Part shown: piece after piece, positions 3,733 to 42,489 of the stretch
How positions within the stretch are numbered: position 1 is the first letter of the stretch
Layout of the letters: every line of letters starts with the position of its first letter
Source: Verrucomicrobiota bacterium
GTDB taxonomy: Bacteria; Verrucomicrobiota; Verrucomicrobiia; Opitutales; Opitutaceae
Length of the DNA: 43,777 nucleotides
Direction of reading: 5' to 3'
Assembly (NCBI GenBank): GCA_018239675.1
Contig: JAFEGX010000027.1
Location: 1 to 43,777, forward strand
The notes under the pieces: generated by a model
The model's database searches: none
What the model saw: the letters and a program-made list of their open reading frames with translations, nothing else
Told to the model about the DNA's origin: nothing
Program-made: the position numbers and the translations under genes

Positions 3733-4523
3733 GCGCGACGCCCCTCCGCGGCCGCCGGATCGTGCTGACCCGCGCCGGCCACCAGAACTCAGAGCTCAGC
3801 GCCAAGCTGCTTGCGCTCGGCGCCGAGGTGGTGGAACTGCCTCTCATCGAGGTCCGGAAGTCGGTCGCGAATGAGGACCTTGCAGAGGTCTTCCCCGAGT
3901 TCGGCTCGTACGACTGGATCGTGTTCACCAGCACCAACGGGGTCCGGTATTTCTTCGAGGAATTCTTCCGCGTGTTCGACGACATCCGTTCGCTGGGCCT
4001 GATCCGCGTGGCCTGCGTCGGCGAGGCGACGGCGAAGGCGGTGGGCGCGCTTCACCTGCGGGTCGAGTGCCAGCCCAAGACCGCCACCGCTGACGCGCTG
4101 GCGGAAGAGCTCATCGCCACCGGCAGTCTCGACAGCGCAAAGGTCCTCGTGGTCACCGGCAATCTGAACCGGGACGCCTTGGTGATAAAGCTCGAGTCGG
4201 AGGGACGCGCGATCGTCGACACGCTAAAGGTCTATGAGACCGTGAAGCATGACCTGAGCGCGGATCCCGCCGCGGCCGATTTCCGGGCCCGGGGCGCCGA
4301 TGCCATCCTGTTTGCCAGCTCGTCAGCCGCCCAATCGTTCGCCGACCAGGCCAAGGCGCTCCAGTTGGCGAAGGACGCCCGTCGGCCGCTCGCCGGCAGC
4401 ATCGGCCCGCAGACGTCCGAGACCATGAAGCAGGTGGGCGTGCCGGTCGACTTTACCGCCAAGGAGCCGGGACTCGATGCCCTGGTCGCGGCGACGGTGA
4501 AGGCGCTAGATCGAGCCAAGTAA
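3729..4523 (+). CDS. hemD: uroporphyrinogen-III synthase
   Basis: Cyclises hydroxymethylbilane with inversion of ring D. HemD proteins are poorly conserved; the call rests on position (ATGA overlap with hemC), on length (264 aa) and on visible family features: RIVLTRAGHQ at the start, VFTSTNGVRYFFEEF in the first lobe, VVTGNLNRD between the lobes, FASSSAAQSF in the second lobe, and IGPQTSETMKQVGV near the end. No HemX or methyltransferase domain is fused. The stop codon TAA lies inside the first unit of the intergenic repeat array that follows. Confidence 0.9.
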   Translation: MSATPLRGRRIVLTRAGHQNSELSAKLLALGAEVVELPLIEVRKSVANEDLAEVFPEFGSYDWIVFTSTNGVRYFFEEFFRVFDDIRSLGLIRVACVGEATAKAVGALHLRVECQPKTATADALAEELIATGSLDSAKVLVVTGNLNRDALVIKLESEGRAIVDTLKVYETVKHDLSADPAAADFRARGADAILFASSSAAQSFADQAKALQLAKDARRPLAGSIGPQTSETMKQVGVPVDFTAKEPGLDALVAATVKALDRAK

Positions 4524-4643
4524 CAGGTACAGATGCCCAAGTAACAGGTACGAGGGGGCAAGTATCAGGGTAAATTGTAGGTTCCGGAGCGTCGTGCGCC
4601 CCGCACGATTCCTGATACCTGTCCCTTGTCTTTTGTTACCTGG
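4517..4643. repeat. heptad repeat array with inverted partner, after hemD
   Basis: Words of seven bases run in phase from 4517 (CAAGTAA, CAGGTAC and variants); the 13-mer AAGTAACAGGTAC is repeated exactly 21 bases apart (4518-4530 and 4539-4551). A degenerate inverted counterpart lies at 4611-4643 (CCTGATACCTG ... GTTACCTGG). Between the arms is a small perfect hairpin, TCGTGCG/CGCACGA at 4592-4598/4602-4608. The remaining bases up to the DegT start at 4714 show nothing else I recognise. Confidence 0.75.
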
Positions 4644-4713
4644 CGTGCAGCCCCTTGCTGGTTTGCTTTCCTGATCCTTGCTCCCTGAGACCGGTTACCC
4701 TACGAAAGTCCCC

Positions 4714-5808
4714 ATGAAGGTTCCGTTCCTCGATCTCTCCCTGCAGCACAAGGCGCTGCGCGAGCCCGCGCTGGCGGCGCTGGCGGCGACGTATGACGCC
4801 ACCCGGTTCTGCCTCGGCAAGGACGTCGAGGATTTTGAGAAGGGCTTCGCCGCGGCACTGGGCTATCCCGCGGTGCTCGGCATGAACAGCGGTACCGCAC
4901 CGCTCCATGTCGCCTGCATGATGGCTGGATTCGGCCCGGGCGACGAGATCATCACGGCCCCCTTCACGTTCATCTCGTCCGCCTGGGGAATAAATTACGT
5001 CGGGGCCCGGCCGGTGTTCGCTGACATCGAGGAAGGCACCTTCAACCTCGATCCCGCCAAGGTCGCCGCGGCCGTGACGCCCCGCACCAAGGGCATCATC
5101 GCGGTGCACCTATTCGGCCAGCCGGCGCGGATGGACGAGATCATGGCCATCGCGAAGCAGCACAATCTTTTCGTGATCGAGGACTGCGCGCAGGCGGTCG
5201 GCGCCCGTTATCAGGGCACCCCGGTCGGGCTGCTGGGCGACGTGGGCACATTCAGCTTCTATCCGACCAAGAATCTTGGGGGCTGCGGCGAGGGCGGCGC
5301 GCTCGTCACCCGGCGACCGGAGCTGCACACCCGCGCGCGGCACATCCGGGTGCACGGGTCGGACCGGCGCTACTATCATGACATCGTGGGCGGAAATTTC
5401 CGAATGGATGGGTTCCAGGGCGCGTTGCTGAACGTGAAGTTGCCTCACCTCGCGGGCTGGACGCGGCGGCGGCAGGCTATCGCGGGACGGTACCTCCGCG
5501 AGATCCGGCTCGCCGATGTCCGCCTGCCCGACCAGCCGAGCTACGGTCAGTCGGTCTTCCACCAGTTCACGATCCGGCATCCGCAGCGCGACGCGCTCCG
5601 GGAGCACCTCACGCGTCGCGAGGTCGGCACCGACCTGATCTATCCGGTGCCGCTGCACCTCCAGAAGTGCTACGGCTATCTTGGGTACGGTCCCGGCAGC
5701 TTCCCGGTGTCCGAACGTTCCGCCGCCAACTGTGTCAGCCTGCCGATCTTCCCGGAGCTGACCGACGCGCAGGTCGATCACGTCATCGCCAGCGTCAACG
5801 CGTTCTGA
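4714..5808 (+). CDS. DegT/DnrJ/EryC1/StrS family PLP aminotransferase
   Basis: Fold-type I PLP enzyme of the sugar aminotransferase family, which usually transfers an amino group to a nucleotide-linked keto sugar for surface polysaccharides or glycosylated metabolites. The 364-aa protein shows VPFLDLSLQH at the start, MNSGTAPLHVA (phosphate cup), TAPFTFISSAWGI, FVIEDCAQAVGA (Asp binding the pyridine ring) and FSFYPTKNLGGCGEGGA with Lys186 as Schiff-base lysine. I chose ATG 4714; an in-frame ATG 36 bases upstream would add residues unlike the family. The substrate cannot be told: no sugar-nucleotide genes are adjacent. Two bases separate it from trpF, so they are probably co-translated. Confidence 0.9.
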   Translation: MKVPFLDLSLQHKALREPALAALAATYDATRFCLGKDVEDFEKGFAAALGYPAVLGMNSGTAPLHVACMMAGFGPGDEIITAPFTFISSAWGINYVGARPVFADIEEGTFNLDPAKVAAAVTPRTKGIIAVHLFGQPARMDEIMAIAKQHNLFVIEDCAQAVGARYQGTPVGLLGDVGTFSFYPTKNLGGCGEGGALVTRRPELHTRARHIRVHGSDRRYYHDIVGGNFRMDGFQGALLNVKLPHLAGWTRRRQAIAGRYLREIRLADVRLPDQPSYGQSVFHQFTIRHPQRDALREHLTRREVGTDLIYPVPLHLQKCYGYLGYGPGSFPVSERSAANCVSLPIFPELTDAQVDHVIASVNAF

Positions 5809-5810
5809 CC

Positions 5811-6458
5811 ATGGTGGGCGACATTTCGCTTAAGGTCTGCGGACTCACGACTGCGGCGGATGCCGCCGCGGCCGTGCGGGTTGGCGCCGATTATCTCGGA
5901 TATATTTTCTACCCGAAGTCGCCGCGCTATCTTCCGCTCGACGTCTACCGGGGCCTCTCGCTGGGTTCTCTGGCCGCCAAGCGCGTGGCAGTCGTGGTCG
6001 AGCCGGCGACCGCCGAGCTGGCGGAACTCGCCACCGCCGGTTTTGACTTCTTCCAGCTCCACTGCCGGCCCGAGGTTTCGACTGAGACGGTCGCGGGCTG
6101 GGCTGAGACCGTCGGCGTGCAGCGGCTCTGGCTTGCGCCAAAGTTGCCTCCCGGCACCGACTATCCGGATCGCTTCCTGCCATTTGCTCGGACCGTGTTG
6201 TTCGACGCCTTTGACGGCGACAAGTTCGGCGGCACGGGCCGCACCAGCGACTGGGGCAAGTACACGAGACACCGGCGGCTCTGGCCGCACATCGCCTGGA
6301 TCCTCTCTGGTGGACTGAGTCCGGCCAATGTGGCGGATGCGCTCGCCCAGACCGGCGCGTCCTGGGTCGACGTCAACAGCGGCGTGGAGTCAGCGCCCGG
6401 CCGGAAAGACCCGGCGAAACTGGAAGCGTTGGCGGCGGCAATTCAGGCGCGAAAGTAA
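5811..6458 (+). CDS. trpF: phosphoribosylanthranilate isomerase
   Basis: Catalyses the Amadori rearrangement of phosphoribosylanthranilate in tryptophan synthesis. TIM-barrel protein of 215 aa with LKVCGLT (catalytic cysteine near the N terminus), GADYLGYIFYPKSPRYL, FFQLH, DAFDGDKFGGTGRTSDW (catalytic aspartate and phosphate-binding glycines), LSGGLSPANV and VDVNSGVESAPGRKD. The open frame extends 144 bases upstream into the aminotransferase gene, but ATG 5811 fits the family start. The partner trpC is encoded separately 34 kb downstream on the other strand, so the trp genes are dispersed in this genome. Confidence 0.94.
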   Translation: MVGDISLKVCGLTTAADAAAAVRVGADYLGYIFYPKSPRYLPLDVYRGLSLGSLAAKRVAVVVEPATAELAELATAGFDFFQLHCRPEVSTETVAGWAETVGVQRLWLAPKLPPGTDYPDRFLPFARTVLFDAFDGDKFGGTGRTSDWGKYTRHRRLWPHIAWILSGGLSPANVADALAQTGASWVDVNSGVESAPGRKDPAKLEALAAAIQARK

Positions 6459-6483
6459 TCGGCAGATGTAGCAGAGAGCCAAA

Positions 6484-6516
6484 CTTCGGACACCGATGTC
6501 CGGCATTCGCCTGCCT
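6484..6516. repeat. heptad repeat (TTCGG-CCGATG type) between trpF and ogt
   Basis: A run of seven-base words (TTCGGAC, ACCGATG and variants). It matches 12076-12108 at about 27 of 33 positions by eye, including the shared tail TTCGCCTGCCT. It contains a local palindrome CGGACA/TGTCCG. Its end overlaps the ogt stop codon (6515-6517). It separates two convergent genes. Confidence 0.65.
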
Positions 6517-7009
6517 ACACCGGGTGCAATGCTCCCTCGTGCTCCAAGAGCTGGCGCTTGATTTCCTCACCGAATGCGTAGCCGGTCAGCGAGCCGTCGC
6601 GGCCGATCACGCGGTGGCAGGGGATGAATACACAAATCGGATTGGTGGCGTTGGCGCGACCGACGGCCCGGGCTGCGCCCTCGTGGCGGAGGGCAGCGGC
6701 GAGCTCGCCATAGGTGCGGGTTTCGCCGAAGGGAATCTCCAGGAGCGCCTTCCAGACGGACTGCTGGAAAGCGGTGCCGATGGGCGCCAGCGGCAAGTCG
6801 AAGGCGTCGCGGTCTCCGGAAAAGTACTCGGCCACCTGATGCCGGACGGCGGCCAGCCGCACCGGACCGCGGTTCAGGGTGCCGGCGTCGAAGCGCTCCC
6901 GGAGATCGGAGACGTTGCCAAAGGCGGCTGCGACGATCGCACCGGCGTCGTTCACGGCGACGGAAAACTCGCCGGAGGGAGTTAGGAAGCTGTCGTAGAA
7001 GTGGTTCAT
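6515..7009 (-). CDS. ogt: methylated-DNA--[protein]-cysteine S-methyltransferase
   Basis: Suicide enzyme that takes the methyl group from O6-methylguanine (and O4-methylthymine) onto its own cysteine. The 164-aa protein has an N-terminal ribonuclease-like domain and the C-terminal DNA-binding/catalytic domain with FQQSVWKALLEIPFGETRTY, RAVGRAN (arginine finger and helix) and IPCHRVIG with acceptor Cys131. The open frame continues about 170 codons further upstream, but that part is out-of-frame shadow of the preceding gene; ATG 7009 overlaps the stop of the Ada/AlkA gene by four bases, which fixes the start. Third gene of the alkylation-repair operon. Confidence 0.95.
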   Translation of the reverse strand: MNHFYDSFLTPSGEFSVAVNDAGAIVAAAFGNVSDLRERFDAGTLNRGPVRLAAVRHQVAEYFSGDRDAFDLPLAPIGTAFQQSVWKALLEIPFGETRTYGELAAALRHEGAARAVGRANATNPICVFIPCHRVIGRDGSLTGYAFGEEIKRQLLEHEGALHPV

Positions 7010-8454
7010 GACGGTGGAGGTTGGTTGAATTGCCAGAGGTGGGTGGTCGCGAGGCTGCGGTAGGGGGAGAACATGGCCATCAGGCGCTTGGTCGCGTCGA
7101 TGTCCGGCCGCTCTTCGAGCTTGAGCAGCGCTTTCAGACCACTCGTGACGCCCGTATCTCCGAGCGGGACGCAATCCGGGAAGCCGAGCGAGCGCATCAT
7201 GAGGTAATTGACCGACCACGGGCCGAGGCCGCGCACGGCGAGCAAGGTACGCTCGGCCCGCGTCGCGGAAAGGCCCGCGAGCGCGTCGAGATCGAGCTGC
7301 CCCGTGACGACCAGGCGGGAGGTGTCGATCACGTAGGCCGCCTTCTGCCGCGAGAACTGGAGCGGCAGCAAGTCCGCCGGCTCGAGGGCCGCGACGGCAG
7401 CGGGCGTCGGCAACGCGTAGAGTCCTTCGGCGACCGGGGTGCCGGCTTTCTCGATGAGCCGACGCTTGAGCAGGCAGGCAAAAGGGAAGTTGATCTGCTG
7501 GCCGATGATCGACCAAAGCAGCCCGTCAAAGACCGTGGGCGTGCGGCTGATCCGAAGCTCGGATCGTCCCGCCACGAGCCGTCCCAGCCCCAGCTTTCGG
7601 GCGAGGCGCGCGAAGGCGGCGGCATCTTCGTCCAGTCCGAGCAACCCGACCACCCGCTGGTGAACCTCGGGCAGCGACACCGCTCCGACCGCCTCAATCC
7701 GGGCGAACACGCGTTCCGGCGTCAAATGCAGTCGCAGCAGGGCGGGCCCGCCGGAAAGACGCACCGCCGTGACGTAGCGGTCGCCCTCGAGGCGTTCCGT
7801 GATGCTGTGAATGTCACGACTCAAGGCCCGCCGCAGGTAAGGCAGGAGATAGCCATCAGGAAGCTGGATCTCAAACTCGCGACCCTGGCGGAGATCGCGG
7901 TACGCGGCGGGCGTGAGGCCATTGAGGCGACGGAAGTTCTCGTGAAAGGCCGACAATGCCTCGAAGCCGACCTCAAGGGCGATCCGCGCAATGGACGCGT
8001 CGGACTCAAGCAGGCGCCGCTTGGCCGCGTCGATCCGGGCCCGGAGCAAGAGATCGGACGGGGTGGTGTGGTAGTGCTGCCGGAACAGCTCGATGACGCG
8101 CGTCGCGCCGAAACCCGACCGGCGCACGACCGCCCGCGCGTCCGGGAAACTCTCGGGTGCGCGGCGGATCTCGGCGACGAGCGTCTCGATGGTTTCGAGG
8201 ACCGGGTCGGCCCCGCGCGCGAAGTCGTCCGGATGGCACTTCTTGCACGGGCGGAGTCCAGCGGCGCGGGCCGCCTCGCAGGTGGGGAAGAACCGCACGT
8301 TGGCCAGCTTCGGCTTGCGCGCCTTGCAGGCGGGCAGGCAGTAGATGCCGGTGGTCAGGACCCCGGTGAAGAAGCGGCCGTTGTAGCTGGCGTCGCCGGC
8401 CAGCACCCGGGAATACATCTGGTCATTGGTCATGCGCATGGGACGGGCGGCCAC
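7006..8454 (-). CDS. Ada-type regulator fused to AlkA 3-methyladenine DNA glycosylase
   Basis: 482-aa fusion. Residues about 12-80 form the Ada zinc/methylphosphotriester domain with cysteines 39, 43, 70 and 73 (YCLPACKA and PCKKCHP); Cys39 is the expected methyl acceptor. Residues about 85-190 are an AraC/XylS helix-turn-helix pair (RIALEVGFEALSAFHENFRRL). Residues about 195-478 are an AlkA N-domain plus HhH-GPD glycosylase with VRGLGPWSVNYLMMRSLG and catalytic Asp433 in PLGDTG. The first possible start is GTG 8454, directly after the DUF1203 stop; ATGs at M6, M8 or M13 are alternatives. The O6-methylguanine transferase domain of classical Ada is missing here and is supplied by ogt next door. 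Likely self-regulating when methylated. Confidence 0.94.
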   Translation of the reverse strand: MAARPMRMTNDQMYSRVLAGDASYNGRFFTGVLTTGIYCLPACKARKPKLANVRFFPTCEAARAAGLRPCKKCHPDDFARGADPVLETIETLVAEIRRAPESFPDARAVVRRSGFGATRVIELFRQHYHTTPSDLLLRARIDAAKRRLLESDASIARIALEVGFEALSAFHENFRRLNGLTPAAYRDLRQGREFEIQLPDGYLLPYLRRALSRDIHSITERLEGDRYVTAVRLSGGPALLRLHLTPERVFARIEAVGAVSLPEVHQRVVGLLGLDEDAAAFARLARKLGLGRLVAGRSELRISRTPTVFDGLLWSIIGQQINFPFACLLKRRLIEKAGTPVAEGLYALPTPAAVAALEPADLLPLQFSRQKAAYVIDTSRLVVTGQLDLDALAGLSATRAERTLLAVRGLGPWSVNYLMMRSLGFPDCVPLGDTGVTSGLKALLKLEERPDIDATKRLMAMFSPYRSLATTHLWQFNQPPPS

Positions 8455-8925
8455 TCAGGCTCGTTCGATTCGGAAGGTGTAGCAACCATAGGTTAACGAT
8501 CGCACGTGGATGCACTCGGCCCGGGGATTGGCGAACAGGTCGGCGATCACCGCATCGGGATCCGGCGCTCCCACCCGCGCATCGACAATCCGTTCCGCGG
8601 CGTCGTAGCTCCGGAACACCCGCGTGGTGGGATCAAAATCGGGCGGAAACCGGTGAATGTCCGCGTAGGGTTGACCGCCGTCGGCCAAGACGAAGATCGG
8701 TCCGATCTCACGATAGGGGTGATCATGGGCGAAAGGGCTGTGGCTCAAGAGCAGCAGGCGCTCGCCCTTGCGGATATAGCGGAGCGTCAGGCGGCAAGGC
8801 CGCCCTTCCTCCAGGTTGACCTCAGGCGTGACCCGGTGACCCAGGCAGTCGACGCCCGTACGGCGGACATCCTCGACCATCTGGAGCGGGAGCGGCACGA
8901 TGCGATAGGGAATGGGGCGAGACAT
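8455..8925 (-). CDS. DUF1203 domain protein
   Basis: 156-aa cytoplasmic protein matching the DUF1203 family, with characteristic FRSYDAAERIVDARV (residues about 105-119) and the C-terminal RSLTYGCYTFRIER. The function of the family is not established to my knowledge. No membrane segment or signal peptide. It is the first gene of an operon with the Ada/AlkA fusion (the next start codon immediately follows its stop) and ogt, which suggests, but does not show, a role linked to alkylation stress. The start codon is preceded by GTAAAGTGGGCCC, without Shine-Dalgarno sequence. Confidence 0.85.
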   Translation of the reverse strand: MSRPIPYRIVPLPLQMVEDVRRTGVDCLGHRVTPEVNLEEGRPCRLTLRYIRKGERLLLLSHSPFAHDHPYREIGPIFVLADGGQPYADIHRFPPDFDPTTRVFRSYDAAERIVDARVGAPDPDAVIADLFANPRAECIHVRSLTYGCYTFRIERA

Positions 8926-9053
8926 GGGCCCACTTTACCGCATGCGCGTCGGAACGTCGTCCGGATAGATTCGGTGCAATTTTTCAGGCTCTGGTTGGAC
9001 CCTGGTGCCGCAAGTCGGCTCGACACCGGAGACGGGCCGGACACGCTCATGAC

Positions 9054-9503: not shown

Positions 9504-9543
9504 GCAGTCGCGGCGCCCGGTTTCCTGAGGTTCTGCTCCCGCC

Positions 9544-9780
9544 ATGAGTGCTGAAGCCGCCGGTCAACCGCGCATTGTGCCCGTGCGCTCGGTGCCGATC
9601 GAATTGAGCCAGTTCCTCAAGTTCGCCGGTCTCGTCGAGTCCGGCGGCGAGGCCAAAGCCGCGATCCATGCCGGCAAGGTTCGGCTTAATGGCGCAGTCG
9701 AGAGCCAGAAGGGACGAAAACTCCAGGTCGGCGACCAGGTGAGCTACGGCGGCGAAACCATTGTCGTCCAGCTCGGCTGA
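9544..9780 (+). CDS. small S4-domain RNA-binding protein (YbcJ/YaaA-like)
   Basis: 78-aa protein that is essentially one S4 RNA-binding domain: IELSQFLKFAGLVESGGEAK, then AIHAGKVRLNGAVESQKGRK and a final beta hairpin. This family of very short S4 proteins includes YbcJ and YaaA; the RNA target is unknown. It lies 40 bases after yqeY in the same direction and converges on the DTW-domain gene, whose stop is 11 bases beyond its own. Confidence 0.9.
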   Translation: MSAEAAGQPRIVPVRSVPIELSQFLKFAGLVESGGEAKAAIHAGKVRLNGAVESQKGRKLQVGDQVSYGGETIVVQLG

Positions 9781-11951: not shown

Positions 11952-12009
11952 GGAAAGGGGCAATAAGAGCGGCGATGGGGCGGGCGGCAACCAAAACTCG
12001 GGGGCCAGA

Positions 12010-12101
12010 CGAACGCCGAACATCGGACGCCGAACGCCCAACGTCGAAGTGAGGTGAGTCACGAGGCGATCGTAACTTCGGCGTCCGATGTTCGGCGTTC
12101 G
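12010..12101. repeat. 25-bp perfect inverted repeat built of heptads, between ffh and the aminotransferase
   Basis: Arms 12010-12034 and 12077-12101 are exact reverse complements over 25 bases with a 42-base spacer. Each arm is itself a chain of seven-base words (GAACGCC, GAACATC, GGACGCC); the phase continues beyond the arm into 12035-12048. The element sits between two divergent start codons, so it is not simply a transcription terminator. Related single arms occur at 6484 and 16987. Confidence 0.9.
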
Positions 12102-12196
12102 CCTGCCTTAGGGCAAAAGCACCAACCGGCGGGTTCATCCTCTTTTTTGGTGGCCTAGCCGCTTTCCCTTCTGCGACGCTGGGAGGATTAATCACC

Positions 12197-13390: not shown

Positions 13391-13428
13391 CTCGGCCGAG
13401 GCCGGTGGCCTTTCCCCGACCCGGAATC

Positions 13429-13500
13429 ACCACGAAGGGCGCCAAGCCCACGAAGTCTACGCCCCCGGCATAAGGCTTCGTGCCCTTGGTGCCCTCCGTG
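13429..13500. repeat. nine-base-period inverted repeat between aminotransferase and der
   Basis: Nonad words ACCACGAAG, GGCGCCAAG in phase from 13429 to 13455 are mirrored by GGCTTCGTG, CCCTTGGTG words from 13474 to 13500; the 9-nt phase is kept through the loop. The two arms are imperfect reverse complements (roughly 25 of 31 pairs). Same family as 27114-27187. The remainder of the 192-base gap to der holds nothing else I recognise. Confidence 0.78.
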
Positions 13501-13582
13501 GCGATCAGCGATCCCGCGAGGCGGTTCGCCGGCAACTATTGGCTGTATTCCGGCTGCAATCTGCCCTCTGCTAACTCCAATC

Positions 13583-16979: not shown

Positions 16980-16986
16980 TTCTTCC

Positions 16987-17035
16987 TTCGGCGTCGGGCG
17001 TTCAGCATTCGATGTTTGGCGTTCGGTCCGGTATT
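16987..17035. repeat. heptad repeat run (TTCGGCG/TTCGATG words) between fmt and the LysM gene
   Basis: Seven consecutive seven-base words starting at 16987 (TTCGGCG, then TCGGGCG, and five further variants such as TTCGATG at 17008-17014). Same wording as one arm of the 12010-12101 element and as 6484-6516. No inverted partner is present nearby, so this copy would not form a long hairpin. Confidence 0.7.
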
Positions 17036-18614: not shown

Positions 18615-18828
18615 GGTGGGTGAAGGGCGGCGGACGGGTGCCGGTGGGCGGTGGACCGTCGACAATTGGCGGTCCCTACTGCCGTCTTCGGCTGCAGACT
18701 ACATATCTATTGAAAGCTCATGCCGTTGCCTGAGAGGACAGCGGCGCCGACAAAGGCGACAATTACCGCCCACTGTCTACCGTCTTCAATCCACGGTCCA
18801 GCGTCCACAGGCCACCGGCTGCCCTCCG
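18615..18828. repeat. heptad repeat arrays in opposite orientation between parB and secG
   Basis: A run of seven-base words from 18615 to 18677 (GGTGGGT, GGTGGAC and variants) and a reverse-oriented run from 18766 to 18828 (CGGTCCA, GCGTCCA and variants). They are about 88 bases apart and partly complementary, so a long imperfect hairpin is possible. Between them lies an unexplained AT-richer stretch near 18700-18720. secG starts at 18880. Confidence 0.68.
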
Positions 18829-18879
18829 CATCCCGGCATTGACAATACCGGTCGGCGCCTGCTCCTTTGACCCTTTCAC

Positions 18880-27078: not shown

Positions 27079-27113
27079 CCCTGTCGCGTCGGTCAAGTCC
27101 GGATGGCAACGTG

Positions 27114-27187
27114 GCCGCCAAGGCACAAAGCGCACAAGGCCCAAGCGGCTCCCGCCGGGCTGGGTGCACTTGGTGAGCTTGGTGGTA
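27114..27187. repeat. nine-base-period inverted repeat between TonB-like gene and icd
   Basis: Nonad words GCCGCCAAG, GCACAAAGC, GCACAAGGC in phase from 27114, mirrored by TGGGTGCAC, TTGGTGAGC, TTGGTGGTA at 27161-27187. Imperfect complementarity; same wording as 13429-13500. Located between convergent stop codons. Confidence 0.7.
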
Positions 27188-31130: not shown

Positions 31131-31206
31131 TTTCACAGGAGGAAACAGAGGGAGCAGAGTTAAGGCTGTTGCCCGGTCTCTGTTCCCTCCGTTTCCTCCT
31201 GTGAAA
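31131..31206. repeat. 29-bp inverted repeat of nonads between greB-like gene and esterase-cupin gene
   Basis: Arms 31131-31159 and 31178-31206 are reverse complements at 27 of 29 positions, with an 18-base spacer. The sequence is built of nine-base words (CACAGGAGG, AAACAGAGG) that keep phase across the loop. It separates convergent genes. The same words occur at 37715-37851. Confidence 0.9.
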
Positions 31207-35072: not shown

Positions 35073-35082
35073 GGGTAGGGCC

Positions 35083-35150
35083 GAGGGACGAGTGACAAGT
35101 GACAAGACCGGGCGGCTTGACCGCTGGAATTCTTGCGTCTTGTCACTCGC
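35083..35150. repeat. heptad repeat with inverted partner, upstream border of the accessory island
   Basis: Seven-base words (GAGGGAC, GAGTGAC, AAGTGAC) from 35083, then AGACCGGGCGGC at 35105-35116, then CTTGTCACTCG at 35139-35149, which is the reverse complement of 35089-35099. The copy at 36074 shares AGACCGGGCGGC and the following TGRCCGCYGGAA pattern in the same orientation. Confidence 0.85.
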
Positions 35151-35446: not shown

Positions 35447-36214
35447 ATGGCGACCTATGATCGCAGTGTGTTCATCAATTGTCCCTTTGACGCGGACTAT
35501 CATCCGCTGTTTCGGCCGCTCATCTTTACGACGCTTTATTTGGGACTTCAGCCGCGCATCGCGTTCGAGCGCTCGGATGGCGGCGAACTGCGACTGAGCA
35601 AGATTCACAGACTCATCCGGGAGTCACGCTTCGGTATTCATGACTTGTCGCGCTGTCGGGCGGAACGCAAAGGCGAGTACTTCCGTCTCAATATGCCGCT
35701 CGAGCTGGGCATTGACTGCGGATGCAAGTGGTATGGCGGCCGCAGGTTTTCGCGGAAGCGGTTCCTGGTTCTGGAGAAACGCCGATGGGGCTACCAAAAG
35801 GCCCTTTCTGATCTGGCCGGCGCCGATATCAAGTCCCACGGCAATCAGCCGTGGAAAATGATCGAAGCCGTGCGCAACTGGCTGGTGCAAGAGGCGCAGG
35901 GCAGAACGCGTCCGGCGTCGGAGATCAGAACGAAGTTCCTCGCCTTCAGGGCGGCGCACTCTGAACGGTTGGAGCGCGATGGCTACACCAAGCGCGAAAT
36001 CGAGCTGCTCCCGCTTAACGAACTGAAACTGGCAATGGTGTCTTGGTTAAGGGCCGAGTGGAGCGCAAAACAGGTGAGACCGGGCGGCCTGGCCGCCGGA
36101 AATCCGGTCACTCGTCACTCGGCCTTCGTCACTGCGGCGCGTCGGGGCCGTAGAATTCGATCACGGGCTGGCCGGTCGAGAGGTGCACGCCGCGGTACAT
36201 GCCGGGGGTGTTGA
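35447..36214 (+). CDS. FINCPFD-type TIR-like / deoxyribosyltransferase-like protein with repeat-derived C terminus
   Basis: 255-residue frame. Residues 1-209 belong to an uncharacterised but widespread family with VFINCPFDADYHPLFRPLIF at the start, SKIHRLIRESRFGIHDLSR in the middle and NMPLELGID (83-90). The order of beta strand, serine-containing helix and a conserved glutamate in PLELG recalls TIR and nucleoside-deoxyribosyltransferase folds, which cut or transfer nucleotide bases; this is inference. From residue 210 (position 36074) the frame reads through an intergenic repeat and ends 86 bases inside the opposite-strand peptidase gene, so the natural stop seems lost; a TGA lies one base out of frame at 36075-36077. 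G+C about 53-55% in two counted lines against 67% in a neighbour. Confidence 0.75.
   Translation: MATYDRSVFINCPFDADYHPLFRPLIFTTLYLGLQPRIAFERSDGGELRLSKIHRLIRESRFGIHDLSRCRAERKGEYFRLNMPLELGIDCGCKWYGGRRFSRKRFLVLEKRRWGYQKALSDLAGADIKSHGNQPWKMIEAVRNWLVQEAQGRTRPASEIRTKFLAFRAAHSERLERDGYTKREIELLPLNELKLAMVSWLRAEWSAKQVRPGGLAAGNPVTRHSAFVTAARRGRRIRSRAGRSRGARRGTCRGC
36074..36126. repeat. heptad repeat, downstream border of the accessory island
   Basis: Starts directly after codon 209 of the preceding gene. Contains AGACCGGGCGGC (36077-36088) as in the upstream copy, a local palindrome GGCGGCCTGGCCGCC, and the tandem words GTCACTC, GTCACTC. Ends beside the stop codon of the isoaspartyl peptidase gene. Confidence 0.85.
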
Positions 36215-37199: not shown

Positions 37200-37207
37200 G
37201 GCGGAAG

Positions 37208-37702
37208 TCACGGCCCGAGCCGGCGGCCCAGGATGAGCAGGTCGCGTTCGATTCCATCGAGGCGGGCGACGCGGGGGAGGTGGGCCCAGCGTGCAAACCC
37301 GTTCTTCTCAAAGAAACGAAGGCTGGGTTCATTGTGGGCGAAGATGTACCCAAGCAGGGTATGGAGCCCGAGCCGCGGGGCCGTCGTCACCGCTCGGTCG
37401 AGCAGTTCCTGGCCAAGCCCGGAGCGGCGCCGGGCCTCGGTTACATAGAGCGCGATCATTGCCGTGCCGTCGTATGCGGCCCGGGGATAGAACGTGTCGA
37501 AGCTGAGCCAGCCCACGATCTCGTGACCGTCCTCCGCGACCCACACCGGGCGCCGCGCCGGGTCATGGGCCTGCAGCCACGCCACCCGGCTGGCGACCGT
37601 CACCGGCTCAAGGTCGGCGGTCACCATGCGCCCTAGGACGATCGAATTGTAGATGCCAACGATGGCTGGCAGGTCGGACTCGCGGGCGTCGCGGATGGTC
37701 AT
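37208..37702 (-). CDS. GNAT-family N-acetyltransferase (phosphinothricin acetyltransferase-like)
   Basis: 164-aa acetyltransferase: IRDARESDLPAIVGIYNSIV at the start, WVAEDGHEIVGWLSF, the acetyl-CoA loop RRRSGLGQELLDRAV (R-x-x-G-x-G type), and HNEPSLRFFEKNGFARWAHL near the end. The overall pattern is the PAT/YncA-like branch that acetylates amino groups of amino-acid analogues or small amines; the actual substrate is unknown. ATG 37702 chosen over an upstream start that would read through the repeat. First gene of the pair with the isoaspartyl peptidase. Confidence 0.88.
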   Translation of the reverse strand: MTIRDARESDLPAIVGIYNSIVLGRMVTADLEPVTVASRVAWLQAHDPARRPVWVAEDGHEIVGWLSFDTFYPRAAYDGTAMIALYVTEARRRSGLGQELLDRAVTTAPRLGLHTLLGYIFAHNEPSLRFFEKNGFARWAHLPRVARLDGIERDLLILGRRLGP

Positions 37703-37714
37703 GGGCCTAGTTTG

Positions 37715-37851
37715 CACAGGAAGAAACGGAGAGGCCGAAGGCGAGGGGTTCCTCAAGAAACTCCAATCGTCACGACGTCGAACGCATCAGAAAGAATGCG
37801 TGTCCGGAGTCCATGGCAATGCCGCCTCCGTTCTCTCCGTTTCCTCCTGTG
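37715..37851. repeat. nine-base-period inverted repeat upstream of the GNAT gene
   Basis: Arms 37715-37732 and 37834-37851 match as reverse complements at 17 of 18 positions, with a spacer of about 100 bases. Words CACAGGAAG, AAACGGAGA repeat the vocabulary of 31131-31206. Lies in the promoter-side region of the GNAT gene and 3' of GlsB. Confidence 0.78.
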
Positions 37852-37887
37852 AGAACTTCTGTCGCGCCCTGTTCTTCGGATGACGCG

Positions 37888-38136
37888 TCATTTCTTGATG
37901 AACCGGAGCAGCCAGAGAAACGCCAGCGCGCCGAGCACCGCGAAGATCAGCTGGCCGATGAAGCTGTGGGCCGAGATGCCGACCAGCCCGAAGCCGAATC
38001 CGCCGAGAAAGGCGCCGATGATGCCGACGATCATGTTGCCGGCCACGCCGAAGCCCTTGCCCTTGCTGATCAGCCCGCTGATCCAGCCGGCCAGCGCGCC
38101 CAGGATGAGAAAGGTCAGGAAGCCCTGCAGGGTCAT
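37888..38136 (-). CDS. GlsB/YeaQ/YmgE-family small membrane protein
   Basis: 82-aa protein with three hydrophobic segments (residues about 3-22, 33-55, 60-79) and the family's glycine-rich pattern: FLILGALAGWISGLISKGKG, VGIIGAFLGGFGFGLVG and LIFAVLGALAFLWLL. Formerly annotated as transglycosylase-associated protein; no enzymatic activity is established. Family members are often stress-induced. It stands alone between two repeat arrays. Confidence 0.93.
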   Translation of the reverse strand: MTLQGFLTFLILGALAGWISGLISKGKGFGVAGNMIVGIIGAFLGGFGFGLVGISAHSFIGQLIFAVLGALAFLWLLRFIKK

Positions 38137-38192
38137 GCGGCAAGAATGCGGCCCCTCGGCAGCGTCGCGAGCGAAAAGGACTCGGCCGCGTT

Positions 38193-38290
38193 GCGGCCAG
38201 TGATGCGCGGCCAGTGACGAGGGACGAGTGACTAGTGACGAGCTTGGCTAGGCACCAATCCGGATTCGTGGCCCTGGTCACTCGTCCCTC
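38193..38290. repeat. heptad repeat with 14-bp perfect inverted repeat, upstream of GlsB
   Basis: GCGGCCAGTGA occurs at 38193-38203 and 38207-38217, 14 bases apart (twice seven), continuing as seven-base words to 38239. GAGGGACGAGTGAC at 38219-38232 is the exact reverse complement of 38277-38290. Same words as at 35083. Ends just before the stop codon of the next minus-strand gene. Confidence 0.85.
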
Positions 38291-38297
38291 GATCCGC

Positions 38298-38969
38298 CTA
38301 AGGCGACGCGGGTCGGGTGAACTCCATCTTGTTGGCCAGGTCGACGAGGCGCTCGCGGAGGATCTGGTTCTCCTCCTCCGTGGTCTTGTGGTAGGTGCTG
38401 CGCTCGGTGACCCGCTCGGCCAGCTCGGTGGTGATCACGTAGATGTTGCCGTTGCGGACGAAGATGAGATTGCCGCGCTTGGCAACGATGGGCGTGTCGT
38501 CCGCCCCGAGGATCGCCCGCTTGGCCGCGAACATCGAGCCGTTCGGCAGGAGCGTGTAGGCGATCAGCGCCCCGTCCATCACTCCCGGCGTGAACACCAC
38601 GCTCTCGACGCTGCCCCCGGGAAAGGCGTGCTGGAAATCCGGCATGACGTACGAGCTGAAGAAAAAGGCCAGGTAGTCCTTCAGGCCGCGGGTGGACAGC
38701 TCCCACCGTTGCGTGGCGTCCTGCGCGAACACGCCGATGCTGACGTGGAGATTGAAGGCGTCCTGGAAGGTGACGACATTGTCGGTGTCACGGATCGTTC
38801 CGCCGAGCTCGGGCAGGACCGGGATCGGCATGCGGAAGGTGCCGGTGGGCGAAATGTACACGCGTCCCTCGACGCGCCCCATCAAACCGGGCGCGGTGTC
38901 TTCCACCTGCGCGAGGAGCGGCGCCCCCAGCAGCAGCGAGGAAAGCAGGATGGTGCGCAACATCGTCAT
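38298..38969 (-). CDS. exported protein of unknown function
   Basis: 223 aa with a signal peptide (MLRTILLSSLLLGAPLLA, from the second methionine). The mature part begins with a beta-rich segment (GRVEGRVYISPTGTFRMPIP, then TIRDTDNVVTFQD), has FPGGSVESVVFTPGVMDGAL and NGSMFAAKRAILG, and ends with a charged helix (TTEEENQILRERLVDLANK). I do not recognise the family. It follows rsmA on the same strand after a hairpin; no functional clue from neighbours. Confidence 0.75.
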   Translation of the reverse strand: MTMLRTILLSSLLLGAPLLAQVEDTAPGLMGRVEGRVYISPTGTFRMPIPVLPELGGTIRDTDNVVTFQDAFNLHVSIGVFAQDATQRWELSTRGLKDYLAFFFSSYVMPDFQHAFPGGSVESVVFTPGVMDGALIAYTLLPNGSMFAAKRAILGADDTPIVAKRGNLIFVRNGNIYVITTELAERVTERSTYHKTTEEENQILRERLVDLANKMEFTRPASP

Positions 38970-38987
38970 GACTATTGCAGCGGACCG

Positions 38988-39007
38988 CCCCGGCTTTCAA
39001 GCCGGGG
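38988..39007 (-). terminator. palindromic hairpin directly after rsmA
   Basis: CCCCGGCTT/AAGCCGGGG, nine pairs around two bases, adjoining the rsmA stop codon (39008-39010). No T tract on either side, so it may act more as 3'-end protection than as a strong terminator; the next gene starts 18 bases further on. Confidence 0.6.
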
Positions 39008-39835
39008 CTATCTTCCTGATACCGCGAGCCGCTGCCAAAGTTCCACGGGAATGGTCTCGGCGCGAGCCTGGGCGGTGAATCCCGCCCGGGTCAATTCCGC
39101 CAGCCAGGCGGCGCCCCCGTCCGGGAGGAGCCCGCGCAGCAGCCCGCCCAGCTGCTTGCGTCGCTGCTGGAAGCACGCGCGGATCACGGTCTTGGCGGCC
39201 GACGCGAACACGTGTGGCGTCCCGCGGCGGACCAGGTGCAGGAGGTACGATTCGACCTCCGGCTTGGGGTAGAAGCAGGCTGCATCCACCCGGTGCCCCG
39301 GCGCAATTTCGTAGGCCGACTGGAGGAAGATCGAGATCGCGCCGAAGTCCTTGCCCCCCGGCCGCGCCGCATAGCGCTGCGCCGCCTCCTGCTGGAGCAT
39401 CAGGACCATCCGGTCCGGCAGCGGGCCGGACAGGACCGCGTCCATCCACGGCGTCGAGACCGCGTAGGGCAGGTTGGCCACGATCTTGAAAGGCCGATTG
39501 CCCGGAAATCCCGCGAGCGGCGATTCGACCGCATCACCTTCGAGGAGGTGAAGGCGCCCGCCGGCCGACGGAACGAGCGATTCCTCAAGGTGGTGGTGGA
39601 GATGGCGATCCTTCTCGACCGCCCATACCTCCGCGCCCGCTTCGAGCAGCGCGCCGGTCAGAGTGCCGAGCCCCGGGCCCACCTCGATGACGACGTCCTC
39701 TGCACCCACTTGGGCGAGTTCGAGGGACTTCCGGACGATGTTGCCGTCGACCAGGAAATTCTGCCCGAGGAAGCGCTTCGGCTGGTGGCCCAGCCGCGCG
39801 AGGAGTTCGCGGGTCGCGCTGGGGGAGAGCGGCAT
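39008..39835 (-). CDS. rsmA: 16S rRNA dimethyladenosine transferase RsmA (KsgA)
   Basis: Dimethylates two adjacent adenines in helix 45 of 16S rRNA (A1518 and A1519, E. coli numbering) with S-adenosylmethionine. 275 aa: KRFLGQNFLVDGNIV near the start, SAM motif IEVGPGLGTLTGALLEAG, acidic EKD, catalytic NLPYAVSTP, and C-terminal helical domain (ACFQQRRKQLGGLLRGL). Its start codon shares a base with the trpC stop (TGATG), so it is translated after trpC; the pairing appears incidental to function. Confidence 0.96.
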   Translation of the reverse strand: MPLSPSATRELLARLGHQPKRFLGQNFLVDGNIVRKSLELAQVGAEDVVIEVGPGLGTLTGALLEAGAEVWAVEKDRHLHHHLEESLVPSAGGRLHLLEGDAVESPLAGFPGNRPFKIVANLPYAVSTPWMDAVLSGPLPDRMVLMLQQEAAQRYAARPGGKDFGAISIFLQSAYEIAPGHRVDAACFYPKPEVESYLLHLVRRGTPHVFASAAKTVIRACFQQRRKQLGGLLRGLLPDGGAAWLAELTRAGFTAQARAETIPVELWQRLAVSGR

Positions 39836-40635
39836 CAGGTGGCCCGGAAGCTGGCAATCAGGGCGCCCGGGTCGGTGGCCCGCATCAGCGATTCGCCGAC
39901 CAGCACGGCATGCGCGCCGGCCGCCCGGACGCGGGCGGCGTCGGCCCCGGAGGCGATCCCGCTTTCGCTGACGGCGGTCACGCCGCGCGGAAACCGCGGG
40001 ATGAGGCGTTCGCTGAGACCGAGGTCGGTCTGGAAGATCGCGAGGTCCCGGTTGTTCACGCCGATGATCTTCGCGCCGTGGGCGACGGCGCGGTCGAGTT
40101 CGGATTCCTCATGGATCTCGTAGAGGGCGTCGAGACCGGCGGCGGCGGCGGCCTGGGCCAGGGGGCGGATCTCGGCATCCGCGAGGGCTCGGACAATGAT
40201 AAGGATGGCGCTGGCCCCGGCCTCGCGGGCCTGCCGCACCTGGATCGGGTGGACCATGAAGTCCTTCCGGAGGCAGGGAACCGCGGGCGGTGTCGACCGG
40301 AAATGCGCGGTGACGCCGGTCAAGTCGGCCAGATTTCCGCCGAAATACTTTTCATCGGTCAGCACCGAGAGGGCATCGGCGCCGGCGGCTTGGTAGCGGC
40401 GGGCCTGCTCAAGGGAGGACGCGCCGGCCTTGATGTCGCCGGCGGACGGCGAGCGGCGCTTGATTTCCGCGACCACGGCGAGGCGGCCGTCGGTCCGGCG
40501 CAGAGCGCCCGCGAACGACGGCGGCCGGGGAAGCCGGGCGTGCAGGTCGGCCAGCTCCGCCGGATCGACCGGACGGATCAGCGGGGCGATCTCACGCCGC
40601 TTCCAGGCCATGATTTCCGTGAGCTTGTCGGACAT
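39835..40635 (-). CDS. trpC: indole-3-glycerol phosphate synthase
   Basis: Closes the indole ring from carboxyphenylamino-deoxyribulose phosphate in tryptophan synthesis. 266-aa TIM barrel: LTEIMAWKRREI at the start, VAEIKRRSPSAGDI (catalytic lysine), ALSVLTDEKYFGG, CLRKDFMVHPIQV, YEIHEESELDRA, IGVNNRDL, VSESGIASG and VLVGESLMRA. ATG 40635 fits; 88 codons open upstream belong to the shadow of mazG. trpF is 34 kb away and no other trp genes are here. Confidence 0.96.
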   Translation of the reverse strand: MSDKLTEIMAWKRREIAPLIRPVDPAELADLHARLPRPPSFAGALRRTDGRLAVVAEIKRRSPSAGDIKAGASSLEQARRYQAAGADALSVLTDEKYFGGNLADLTGVTAHFRSTPPAVPCLRKDFMVHPIQVRQAREAGASAILIIVRALADAEIRPLAQAAAAAGLDALYEIHEESELDRAVAHGAKIIGVNNRDLAIFQTDLGLSERLIPRFPRGVTAVSESGIASGADAARVRAAGAHAVLVGESLMRATDPGALIASFRAT

Positions 40636-40738
40636 GCCGGGCAATAGCCGCAAAGAGGCGCGTCCGGGGCAAGAAACAATCGGCTCGGTCCCGGGTTTTC
40701 CTTTTGCGCTTTGGGCGGCTTTTTGCGGCCATATCCCC

Positions 40739-41407
40739 ATGAGTGCCATCGAGGACCTTTGCCGGACCATGGCCCGGTTGCGTGAGCCGGGCGGCTGCCC
40801 CTGGGACCAGGAACAGAACCACGCGACGCTGGTGCGCTGCCTGATCGACGAGGTGAGCGAATTGATCGACACCATCGACCGCCACGACCTGCCGCACATG
40901 CGGGAGGAGCTGGGCGACGTGCTGATCCAGATTGTCTTCCACGCCCGTCTCGCCGAGGAGGCGGGTCACTTCAATTTCGAGGACGTGGCGCGGGACATCA
41001 ACGACAAGCTCGTCCGGCGGCATCCGCATGTGTTCGGCGACGGCAAGCTCGACACCTCCGACCAGGTGATCGCCCAGTGGGAGGTCATCAAGGCGGGTGA
41101 GAAGAAGAACGGCCCGGCCAAGAGCGGCGTGTTCAAGCACCTGCCGCCGAAGCTCCCGGCCCTGATGTTTGCCGAGGCGGTGTGGAAGCAGATTCAGAAG
41201 GACCAGCTGCCGGCGGAGAAGAGCGTCGACGGGGCGCAGGTCCACGCCCTCAGCCGCTACCTCACGAGCGAGTCTCTCGGCCGGATGCTCTTCGAGCTGA
41301 CCGCGGCGGCGCGGGAAAAGGGGCTCGATGCCGAGGGCGCGCTGCGCCAGCACGCCACCCAGGTGATGCGCGATGTCGAGCAACGCGTCCAAGCCGCCCC
41401 TGCCTGA
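40739..41407 (+). CDS. mazG: nucleoside triphosphate pyrophosphohydrolase MazG
   Basis: Hydrolyses NTPs to NMPs and pyrophosphate, removing damaged nucleotides and modulating ppGpp. 222 aa with start IEDLCRTMARLREPGGCPWD, metal-binding EEVSELIDTID-type helix, REELGDVLIQIVFHARLAEE, KLVRRHPHVFGD and QWEVIKAGEKK. The second MazG repeat of the E. coli protein is degenerate, leaving a shorter helical tail. ATG 40739 follows ATATCCCC without Shine-Dalgarno sequence. Divergent from trpC; overlaps the recombinase gene by 35 bases. Confidence 0.94.
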   Translation: MSAIEDLCRTMARLREPGGCPWDQEQNHATLVRCLIDEVSELIDTIDRHDLPHMREELGDVLIQIVFHARLAEEAGHFNFEDVARDINDKLVRRHPHVFGDGKLDTSDQVIAQWEVIKAGEKKNGPAKSGVFKHLPPKLPALMFAEAVWKQIQKDQLPAEKSVDGAQVHALSRYLTSESLGRMLFELTAAAREKGLDAEGALRQHATQVMRDVEQRVQAAPA

Positions 41408-42326
41408 CCTTCCGGCCGACGTCCGGGACGAGTGGTGGACCCCGTTCGCGGAGCACCTGCTCCACGAGCGCCGCTATTCGCCGTACACGCTGCGCAACTA
41501 CTGGCAGGCGTTCGCTGATTTCCACGCCTGGCTGAAGGGCGCCGGGTTGGCCGACCGCGGACTCGACCGGCTCGGTTCGCGGGAGGTGCGCGACTTCATC
41601 ATCGAGTCACAGCGCCGCTACGGCCGCCGCACGCTGCATAATCACGTTTCCGGCCTACGCGCGTTCTACAAGTTCTGGCTGCGGCGGGAGCGCGTGGCGC
41701 GCAATCCGTTCGTCGGCGTGCCGCTCCCGAAGCTCGAACGGCGCCTGCCCAAATTCCTGACCGAGGAGCAGATGACCCGGCTTCTGGCCGCACCCCAGCA
41801 GCTGCTGGCGGCGGGCCAGTTGGACGAGTTCACCGCCCGGCGCGACCGGCTCGTGATGGAGCTCCTCTACGGCGGCGGGCTGCGCATCAGCGAGCTCGTG
41901 GGCCTGAACTACGGCACGATCGACCTCGACGACGGCGTGGCCCGCGTCCTCGGCAAGGGCCGGAAGGAGCGGCTGTGCCCGCTGGGCAAGGTGGCCACGG
42001 CGCTTCTGGCCACCTTCCGCTCCGAGCATGCCCGGCACACGTTGCCGCACTCGCCGGTGATCATCGACGCCCACCACCGCCGCCTGCCGGTGCGGCAGGT
42101 TCAGCTCCTGCTGAAACGCTACCTCGCGCACGCCGAGCTGCCGATGGACCTGACTCCGCACAAGCTTCGGCACTCCTACGCGACGCACCTGCTCAATGCC
42201 GGCGCCGACCTGCGGCTCGTGCAGGAGCTCCTCGGCCATGCCCAGCTCACCACGACGCAGGTCTACACCCACGTGAGCGTGGCGCGGCTGAAGGACATTC
42301 ACGCCAAGGCGCACCCGAGAGGCTGA
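41373..42326 (+). CDS. tyrosine recombinase XerC/XerD
   Basis: 317-aa tyrosine recombinase of the chromosomal dimer-resolution type. N-terminal SAM-like domain (FAEHLLHERRYSPYTLRNYW), catalytic residues Arg171 in GGGLRISEL, Lys195 in GKGRKER, His263 and Arg266 in HKLRHSYATH, His289 in LLGHAQLTTT and nucleophile Tyr298 in QVYTHV. Sequence alone does not separate XerC from XerD. It overlaps mazG by 35 bases, so this is a resident gene rather than a phage or island integrase. No dif site was recognised in the window by eye. Confidence 0.93.
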   Translation: MSSNASKPPLPDLPADVRDEWWTPFAEHLLHERRYSPYTLRNYWQAFADFHAWLKGAGLADRGLDRLGSREVRDFIIESQRRYGRRTLHNHVSGLRAFYKFWLRRERVARNPFVGVPLPKLERRLPKFLTEEQMTRLLAAPQQLLAAGQLDEFTARRDRLVMELLYGGGLRISELVGLNYGTIDLDDGVARVLGKGRKERLCPLGKVATALLATFRSEHARHTLPHSPVIIDAHHRRLPVRQVQLLLKRYLAHAELPMDLTPHKLRHSYATHLLNAGADLRLVQELLGHAQLTTTQVYTHVSVARLKDIHAKAHPRG

Positions 42327-42353
42327 CGCGGTGAAGATGGGCTTTTGAAGGGA

Positions 42354-42489
42354 TGGCCCACGGAAGACACGGAATACGCGGAAGGAATTCGAATGGACCA
42401 TGCCGAGCTGAGCCTCAGCTGGACACCGATCTGTGCACGGGCGCACCGAAGCAAAACCCTTCCGCGTGTTCCGTGTCTTTCGTGGGCCA
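42354..42489. repeat. 32-bp inverted repeat of nonads between xerC/D and hemL
   Basis: Arms 42354-42385 and 42458-42489 pair at 30 of 32 positions; the two mismatches are both G-U in a plus-strand transcript, so that RNA would pair fully. Nine-base words (CCCACGGAA, GACACGGAA, TACGCGGAA) make up the arm. The 72-base spacer contains a near-perfect palindrome AGCTGAG C CTCAGCT (42406-42420). It lies between convergent genes. Confidence 0.92.

Follow-up and report, generated by a model that had tools for sequence, protein, structure and literature searches.

Periodic arrays in the gaps between genes

The window considered here, i.e., the whole stretch of DNA that was analyzed, is an entire contig (C68; JAFEGX010000027.1, 43,777 nucleotides, G+C 0.67) of an Opitutaceae bacterium of the phylum Verrucomicrobiota, and gaps between its genes contain degenerate arrays of short words repeated with a period of 7 or 9 nucleotides (nt). 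In the host genome (3.85 Mb, 148 contigs, 95.5% complete), many such arrays serve as arms of dispersed elements about 60-200 base pairs (bp) long, and the copies have the loop in common in addition to the arms. Genes were called with a small Markov script, and the gaps between those calls were analyzed for autocorrelation, scored as 4-nt match runs and compared with 60 dinucleotide shuffles. The sample comprised 209 gaps, 33 of them in the window (6,073 nt) and 176 in stretches of 21 other host contigs (43,565 nt). The 7- and 9-nt periodicity of the intergenic DNA was confirmed to be real. In the window, z was 7.2, 3.5 and 6.0 at lags 7, 14 and 21, and 3.9 and 3.5 at lags 9 and 18; in the other contigs, the corresponding values were 23, 20 and 15, and 15 and 5.6. 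The top remaining positive lags in these other contigs were 29 (z = 4.1), 5 and 15 (z = 4.0) and 20 (z = 3.5), and lag 2 was depleted. An earlier note on this DNA had proposed a genome-style vocabulary of 7- and 9-nt periods, which this excess over shuffled sequence, inside and outside the window, bears out.

The same note had listed 14 sites, each of which was submitted to a lag test with 400 dinucleotide shuffles (site 36074 to a separate test with single-base shuffles); the p values are nominal, with one test per site over 14 sites. Eleven sites reached p < 0.05, at lag 7 for 1747, 12010, 18615, 35083, 36074 and 38193, and at lag 9 for 13429, 27114, 31131, 37715 and 42354; the other three (4517, p = 0.07; 16987, p = 0.13; 6484, p = 0.69) did not. 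An inverted counterpart had been announced for most arrays. By an ungapped test with 60 shuffles, in which the smallest possible p is 0.016, an inverted repeat of the array with p < 0.05 was found at 8 of the 14 sites (4517, 12010, 13429, 18615, 31131, 37715, 38193 and 42354), and the rest were borderline, short or devoid of one: the repeat at 35083 was borderline (p = 0.066), that at 36074 measured 9 bp and carried no p value, none was found at 6484, 16987 and 27114, and the sole one at 1747 (p = 0.049) was not that of the array.

Four of the 9-nt sites are hairpins. The first (CACCACGAAGGG..., 13426..13505) belongs to a word family also found across phyla, and its gap is almost absent in relatives G008, G005 and G001. 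The second (TTTCACAGGAGGAAACAGAG..., 31131..31206) lies in a convergent gap and has a loop of 18 nt. The third (CACAGGAAGAAACGGAG, 37715..37851; loop 79 nt) aligns with an element on another host contig (L042; 64.6% over 147 columns). In the fourth (CCCACGGAAGACACGGAA, 42354..42489), 30 of 32 positions are paired around a loop of 72 nt, and a near-identical word occurs in another gap of relative G009 (L061). At 27112..27184, an array of CAAGGCACAAAG and CTTGGTG words showed a 9-nt period (p = 0.010 at 27160-27184), with no ungapped inverted repeat found.

A 7-nt hairpin, built of CGAACGC words (12006..12105), lies in a divergent gap and has 29-nt arms with 28 of 29 positions paired (lag 7 p = 0.0025, inverted repeat p = 0.016). 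Arrays with an inverted arm were also found at 18630..18829 (CCACGGT words; lag p = 0.0025, inverted repeat p = 0.016), where relative G008 has another 7-nt word in the gap, at 35077..35147 (GACAAGT; lag 7 p = 0.0025, inverted repeat p = 0.066), at 36052..36133 (GTCACTC, with a short inverted arm forming a 9-bp repeat; lag 7 p = 0.004) and at 38213..38291 (AGTGACG, also retrieved by the inverted-repeat survey); the last three were detected by Tandem Repeats Finder (TRF). A borderline case at 4516..4690 combines a 21-nt (3 x 7) array, CCAAGTAACAGGTACAGAGGC, with an inverted counterpart (TRF score 66; lag 7 p = 0.07; repeat 4553-4569/4670-4686, p = 0.033). Two arrays, both on the forward strand, stand alone. 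One, of CTCGTCA/CACTCGT words, is directly upstream of ilvC (1743..1774; TRF; lag 7 p = 0.025 at 1758-1774; no inverted arm found), and the ilvC gap of relatives, inspected by eye, holds different words or none; the apparent presence of 7-nt arrays in this gap of several relatives concerns arrays too degenerate to count in a fixed-threshold test. The other, of TTCGGCG words, follows a stop codon (16984..17025), is weak (lag 7 p = 0.13) and is extra sequence with respect to relatives G004, G009 and G008. An Rfam scan of the window at gathering scores returned one tRNA and nothing else. TRF also reported a 10-nt period array, TTTTGCGGCT, at 40702-40729 in the gap before the gene at 40739, which is perhaps a member of a 10-nt class.

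Dispersed elements in the host genome

The arrays avoid genes and favor particular types of gap. In 595 kb of host sequence, 70 of the 332 gaps of at least 30 nt, about one fifth, contained a 7- or 9-nt array, and 74 of 82 lag-7 arrays lay in gaps. Convergent gaps were the richest (23/68), followed by co-directional (38/196) and divergent ones (9/68). The location of arrays in divergent gaps, mentioned in the earlier note, is thus real, although this is the gap type in which they are least often found.

A first hairpin survey covered 327 kb including the window (gaps of at least 40 nt, inverted-repeat score of at least 14) and gave 38 inverted repeats, whose best arm lag was 7 in 12 cases and 9 in 15 (lag match of at least 0.5); a second run of the survey used a score of at least 16, and a third, over all sequence, a score of at least 13. 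In the host genome and its relatives, 7-nt arms measured 15-41 nt; arm identities in the host genome are biased, because the hairpins were picked by complementarity. An all-versus-all comparison of gaps over the 595 kb yielded 195 alignments, the longest 45 of which were inspected. Family A (TGTAGCCGCAAAG...) has five copies, in both orientations, with pairwise identities of 76-91% over 159-193 columns, loop included, and of 80-90% with a further copy (L037). In family B (CACAGGAGG), which encloses a 10-nt CGCTAATC hairpin, and family C (CCACCAAGG), which encloses a CCGCCAAGG hairpin, identity was about 64-83% over some 120-195 columns among these longest alignments, and some elements appeared by eye to be nested inside others. 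Autocorrelation and hairpin surveys together support the proposal of a genome-wide family that combines both periods, changing words and inverted pairs.

Nine-nucleotide words across phyla

The word CACGAAG was sought as three exact cores at 9-nt spacing, so that two-unit arrays went uncounted. At least 119 genome-collection stretches contained this pattern, with 13 phylum-level names among the matches listed, as did 119 stretches of the IMG/VR collection. The tally of phyla was taken from record titles, many of them metagenome-assembled genomes (MAGs), with classes assigned to phyla, and some seed matches are possibly coding (e.g., Bradyrhizobium L098 and Streptomyces L144). Edges and unit numbers were counted in two subsets of 80 loci, one from the at least 119 of the genome collection and the other from the 119 of the viral collection, while the tests of spacers, target duplications and array order used all CACGAAG loci, with duplicates dropped for the first two; arrays close to contig ends were dropped.

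Arrays of CACGAAG and of a second word, CGCAGAG, share a left edge, TTTMAC, and often occur in inverted pairs. In the two CACGAAG sets and the CGCAGAG set, respectively, T was present at -5 in 65, 55 and 65% of arrays, A at -2 in 85, 91 and 72%, and C at -1 in 88, 91 and 65%. Exactly three units were counted in 90/99 and 103/116 CACGAAG arrays and in 74/89 CGCAGAG arrays, with seeds that demanded at least three. By contrast, a control with the word reversed (GAAGCAC, hence with unchanged composition) yielded 40 arrays; 11 of them had three units, this edge was absent, and most resembled by eye coding E-A-P repeats. Polarity was likewise marked: among 309 loci, some on related contigs, neighboring arrays at most 300 bp apart were ordered +- in 144 cases and -+ in 10, against 28 each for ++ and --. 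With this order, the outer left flank carries the T-run and the outer right flank the A-run, whereas a terminator has the opposite arrangement.

Seven-nt arrays accompany the 9-nt arrays in distant bacteria, as deduced from those parts of 80 CACGAAG loci that lie outside the seed pattern: they contained 27 further arrays of period 7, whereas any other period between 4 and 13 accounted for 0-5. The 7-nt word GTGACGA had a patchy distribution, being present in 13 of 194 genomes of the phylum with up to 413 sites in one; the reversed control was absent from these 13 carriers, yet 10 of the 194, none of them a carrier, matched it, with a maximum of 12 sites per genome. In these ten (G189, G083, G195, G022, G062, G156, G179, G182, G185 and G197), the reversed sequence may be another 7-nt word. 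Taken together, the same-word, three-copy 9-nt arrays of very distant bacteria suggest a widespread and little-studied kind of repeat.

Spacers between cores

The two spacer letters between successive cores were compared from arm to arm and with a permutation, in arms with at most three core mismatches; they would be expected to agree between arms if pairing were important. CACGAAG spacers were no more alike than expected in either set (identity 0.405 vs. 0.370 permuted, 42 pairs, 169/1000; 0.372 vs. 0.374, 43 pairs), while the cores were 93-95% alike between arms and their changes mostly affected one arm (44 vs. 2 and 61 vs. 9). The spacers are largely purine. Since they vary independently between arms, the cores look like sites read by their sequence, and a trio of evenly spaced cores separated by free letters resembles a set of phased contacts for a protein. 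The idea that one arm is copied from the other was thus rejected for CACGAAG, but not for CGCAGAG, whose spacers are considered below.

Turnover between related genomes

In same-genus relatives with strong synteny, several orthologous gaps contained by eye other words or nothing. In four Herpetosiphon species, the genes around orthologous gaps can be aligned, while the gaps themselves appeared by eye as differing mosaics of modules with periods of 7, 9 and 10 nt. In two Ferrigenium species (one case, by eye), the same gene pair flanks an element of 125-145 bp in one and an empty gap in the other; the sequence TAGATTT precedes the element and is also present in the empty gap, so the T-run seems to predate the element there. 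Two Lamellibrachia symbionts share, over 35.5 kb of a 72-kb contig, three long stretches with 90-93% identity and a short one with 84%, and two of the three alignment breaks contain arrays of the same period class but of different words. At the first, CACGAAG faces CGCAGAG/CGCAAAG within a kept outer stem, one arm of symbiont B having an 8-nt spacing; at the second, ACAGGTN faces AAAGGCT.

Discussion

The best fit to these observations, and one which we hold with the scales about level, is that the arrays are the ends of non-autonomous elements, carrying arrayed binding sites for a protein. The elements would be small (about 60-200 bp) and dispersed, each arm consisting of tandem short cores with a fixed spacing and free spacer letters, so that a period of 9 would represent a 7-nt core plus 2; the 7- and 10-nt classes may, by analogy, be built alike. 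A protein is predicted to recognize the cores, which are in phase, at the two inverted ends; the whole element, loop included, would be copied or moved in trans, mostly into 3' gaps and other elements. Two suggestions of the earlier note find their place here, i.e., non-autonomous elements, in line with dispersed copies that include the loop, and tandem protein-binding sites, in line with conserved cores and freely varying spacers. We infer that a recombinase is responsible for mobilization, that one class of protein serves all words, and in which direction the species differences arose. From a broader point of view, the arrays might tentatively be assigned to a pan-bacterial class of mobile elements, with phased-array ends (three 9-nt units behind TTTMAC, with 7- and 10-nt sisters), whose words change while the spacing is kept, a single enzyme reading spacing and short core and leaving no regular target duplication; we consider this possible, but rather doubtful. 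A three-unit code that is conserved while its spacers vary speaks for a specific protein that reads the DNA; its identification would explain much intergenic DNA in these bacteria and perhaps reveal a new way for small elements to move. The 9-nt elements can be searched for by their edge, unit number and polarity.

Several results weigh against mobile non-autonomous elements, the main weaknesses being the missing mobilizer and the missing target duplications. Among 45 hairpins of the host and its relatives, 4 were flanked by a direct repeat of at least 3 nt versus 4.9 expected, and 114 cross-phylum pairs remained at the permuted level for k = 4-6; at k = 7, 5 of the 114 had flanking direct repeats versus 1.8 expected (standard deviation 1.3). 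An excess of 2-nt repeats at the element edges (10 vs. 0.7) consisted of GC, CG or AT in all ten cases; these 2-mers are self-complementary, so they give no sign of duplication. The elements share with DDE-type miniature inverted-repeat transposable elements their short, dispersed, gene-free copies with inverted ends, but not the target site duplication outside those ends. No recurrent gene that could mark an autonomous copy was recognized between distant inverted arms at the 309 loci. Searches of 72,556 plasmid records (best E 0.07) and 50,697 phage records (best E 1) turned up no convincing arm, which is odd for a mobile element spanning phyla. CGCAGAG arms share their spacers (0.500 vs. 0.375 permuted, 29 pairs, 2/1000), as copied or paired arms would. 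Within the genus, a fixed-threshold test of whether array types are kept at orthologous gaps was not significant: the relative's gap had a 7-nt array for 1 of 9 window gaps with such an array versus 7 of 79 other gaps, and a 9-nt array for 0 of 6 versus 4 of 82. The Ferrigenium pair, although nearly precise, has some 14 unexplained extra bases on the right side and is compatible with gain as well as loss. Finally, the two Lamellibrachia symbionts have a further CACGAAG array in common, with identical sequence and orthologous position (A 7917 / B 10892), so arrays can persist.

Clusters of open reading frames recurring between arrays were considered as autonomous copies and rejected; they lie in groups of related viral-collection contigs, and in four such groups inspected by eye, part of the frames resembled structural genes of phages while the remainder did not look like genes. 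In three viral-collection loci (L241, L254 and L416), CACGAAG or CGCAGAG arrays lie between frames of which some resemble phage structural genes, as if picked up by temperate phages of carrier hosts (by eye).

Next in rank, and to our mind unlikely, is a static reading, in which the pairs are binding sites for a global regulator or nucleoid protein of the host, their copies being spread by ordinary duplication and the cores kept by selection. The preservation of cores while spacers vary, the rule of three units and the array that is identical in both symbionts are all in line with this explanation, which is also the published reading of the same architecture in Geobacter metallireducens, where integration host factor (IHF) or HU was suggested (PMC2700814, in the available part of the text). 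On the other hand, divergent gaps, the main territory of regulators, are the poorest in arrays, orthologous gaps in the genus mostly lack kept arrays, the distribution of GTGACGA is patchy, and loops are copied together with arms.

Local replication slippage with hairpin template switching, the footprint of the polymerase setting the 7 nt, is already disfavored and appears improbable. The slippage idea has been put forward for 7-nt repeats (PMC4679880, as far as the consulted part of that paper goes), and in many genomes no long simple repeat is commoner than the 7-nt kind, according to the available text of two reports (PMC4679880; PMC4692102). Such a process hardly accounts for words that recur in distant phyla with an unchanged left edge and, mostly, a count of three, for CACGAAG spacers that are not copies of each other from arm to arm, or for dispersed copies with homologous loops.

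The view that these are repetitive extragenic palindromic (REP) or REPIN elements, moved by a REP-associated tyrosine transposase (RAYT, of the Y1 HUH type), is likewise already disfavored and seems very improbable. Hairpins, the lack of an excess of target duplications and the preference for 3' gaps would suit it, and Y1 genes were found in 14 of the 18 genomes tested. However, Y1 had no match in the host genome, in the array-rich Herpetosiphon genomes G211 and G212, or in G001 (where arrays were unsurveyed). Moreover, 20 Y1 loci from other genomes, taken with up to about 1.5 kb on each side, contained no 7- or 9-nt array hairpin; four (L482, L483, L484 and L487) had a single periodic stretch, that of L487 being a 7-nt array without a partner, about 1.4 kb away from the match, and eight had other palindromes. 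The latter lie beside the Y1 matches of L494 (e.g., GTAGGGCGAGGTCTTGGACCCGC), L489, L490, L491, L488, L476, L477 and L484, in relatives and other genomes of the phylum. As palindromes of this sort are also plentiful in gaps of G007 and G008, the periodic elements coexist with ordinary REP-like repeats.

A reverse transcriptase, or telomerase-like synthesis, was rejected as a general partner, RVT_1 being found in 5 of the 18 genomes and unmatched in the host genome and in seven other tested genomes of its family. The "enzyme-generated" repeats imagined in the earlier note lack positive evidence, and its call for a genome-wide transposase or reverse transcriptase ended with neither Y1 nor RVT_1 matched in the host genome. 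Three array-rich Herpetosiphon genomes (G212:C5, G211:C112 and G213:C21) have in common an 812-codon frame for a reverse transcriptase; as it is unmatched in the host genus, it is not a general partner.

Transcription terminators or stabilizers of mRNA 3' ends are scarcely credible in spite of the convergent/3' preference and the strong stems of the window, since the CACGAAG pairs have their T-rich flank before and their A-rich flank after, the reverse of a bidirectional terminator and with the T-run 5' of the hairpin rather than a U-run 3' of it, and their spacers do not preserve pairing; for this family, the earlier opinion that simple terminators are inadequate holds.

Relation to known repeats

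This kind of repeat is already in print piecemeal, as unexplained multicopy sequences or repeats of single genomes or groups. Cyanobacterial heptanucleotide short tandemly repeated repetitive (STRR) sequences are direct 7-nt arrays between genes, a description that also fits the lag-7 arrays reported here, 74 of 82 of which are in gaps.

The closest precedent contradicts the earlier belief that a fixed period combined with changing words has no known counterpart. In G. metallireducens, three classes of multicopy "predicted global regulator binding sites" were described in 2009 (PMC2700814), with four 8-nt, three roughly 9-nt (TCTCCGTS[Y]) or five 7-nt tandem repeats. In the part of the text available, opposite-strand pairing, with a variable distance, is stated for classes 1 and 2 and shown by drawings for class 3, and IHF/HU binding is the authors' suggestion. 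The complement of the class 2 unit, TCTCCGTS[Y], three of which stand in tandem, fits the CRCRRAG core format found here. The present arrays have in common with these sites their build of short tandem repeats (mostly three 9-nt units, and 7-nt arms of 15-41 nt) and their opposite-strand pairs (the +- order given above). That report nevertheless concerns one genome, to which three of the four sets were called unique, and its available text does not include a left edge, cross-phylum identity or spacer independence. In G. bemidjiensis, multicopy sequences, including direct repeats of 6 to 42 nt, occupy 12% of intergenic regions, according to the portion of the report seen (PMC2996986).

The 7-nt arrays of Xanthomonas (GGGAATC) and Nostoc (GGGGAYT) are also largely intergenic, and the former have a convergent inverted partner in 70 and 75 cases in two genomes; they differ in having a single G-rich word, for which G-quadruplexes are discussed, and lengths of 2-26 and 2-18 units (PMC4692102, available text). 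TAACTGA repeats of Beggiatoaceae, Cyanobacteria and Bacteroidetes are 7-nt, mostly intergenic and patchy across phyla, with no evident mechanism; unlike the present elements, they are mostly direct arrays just upstream of start codons, with one inverted case in the genome studied (PMC4679880, in the part available). REP/RAYT systems (GTAG and CGTC families) are also dispersed palindromes outside genes, but no tandem period is told in the accessible part of the paper (PMC3733652), and the Y1 partner that stands beside such repeats is unmatched in the host genome. A literature search with six array sequences returned no paper, and in the literature searched, most of the listed papers having remained unopened, we found no account of the cross-phylum identity, edge, unit number or spacer independence, nor a named protein that reads a three-unit code.

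A composite element of about 90 bp (L155:7912-8000 and G214) combines an outer stem (GTGTTCGTT...) with inner CACGAAG arms and is matched, in full or in part, 38 times in the genome of a tubeworm symbiont. In a cyanobacterial MAG (L119), a long 8-nt array, GGGGTGCC, lies near position 5387, about 0.9 kb from a 9-nt CACGAAG hairpin.

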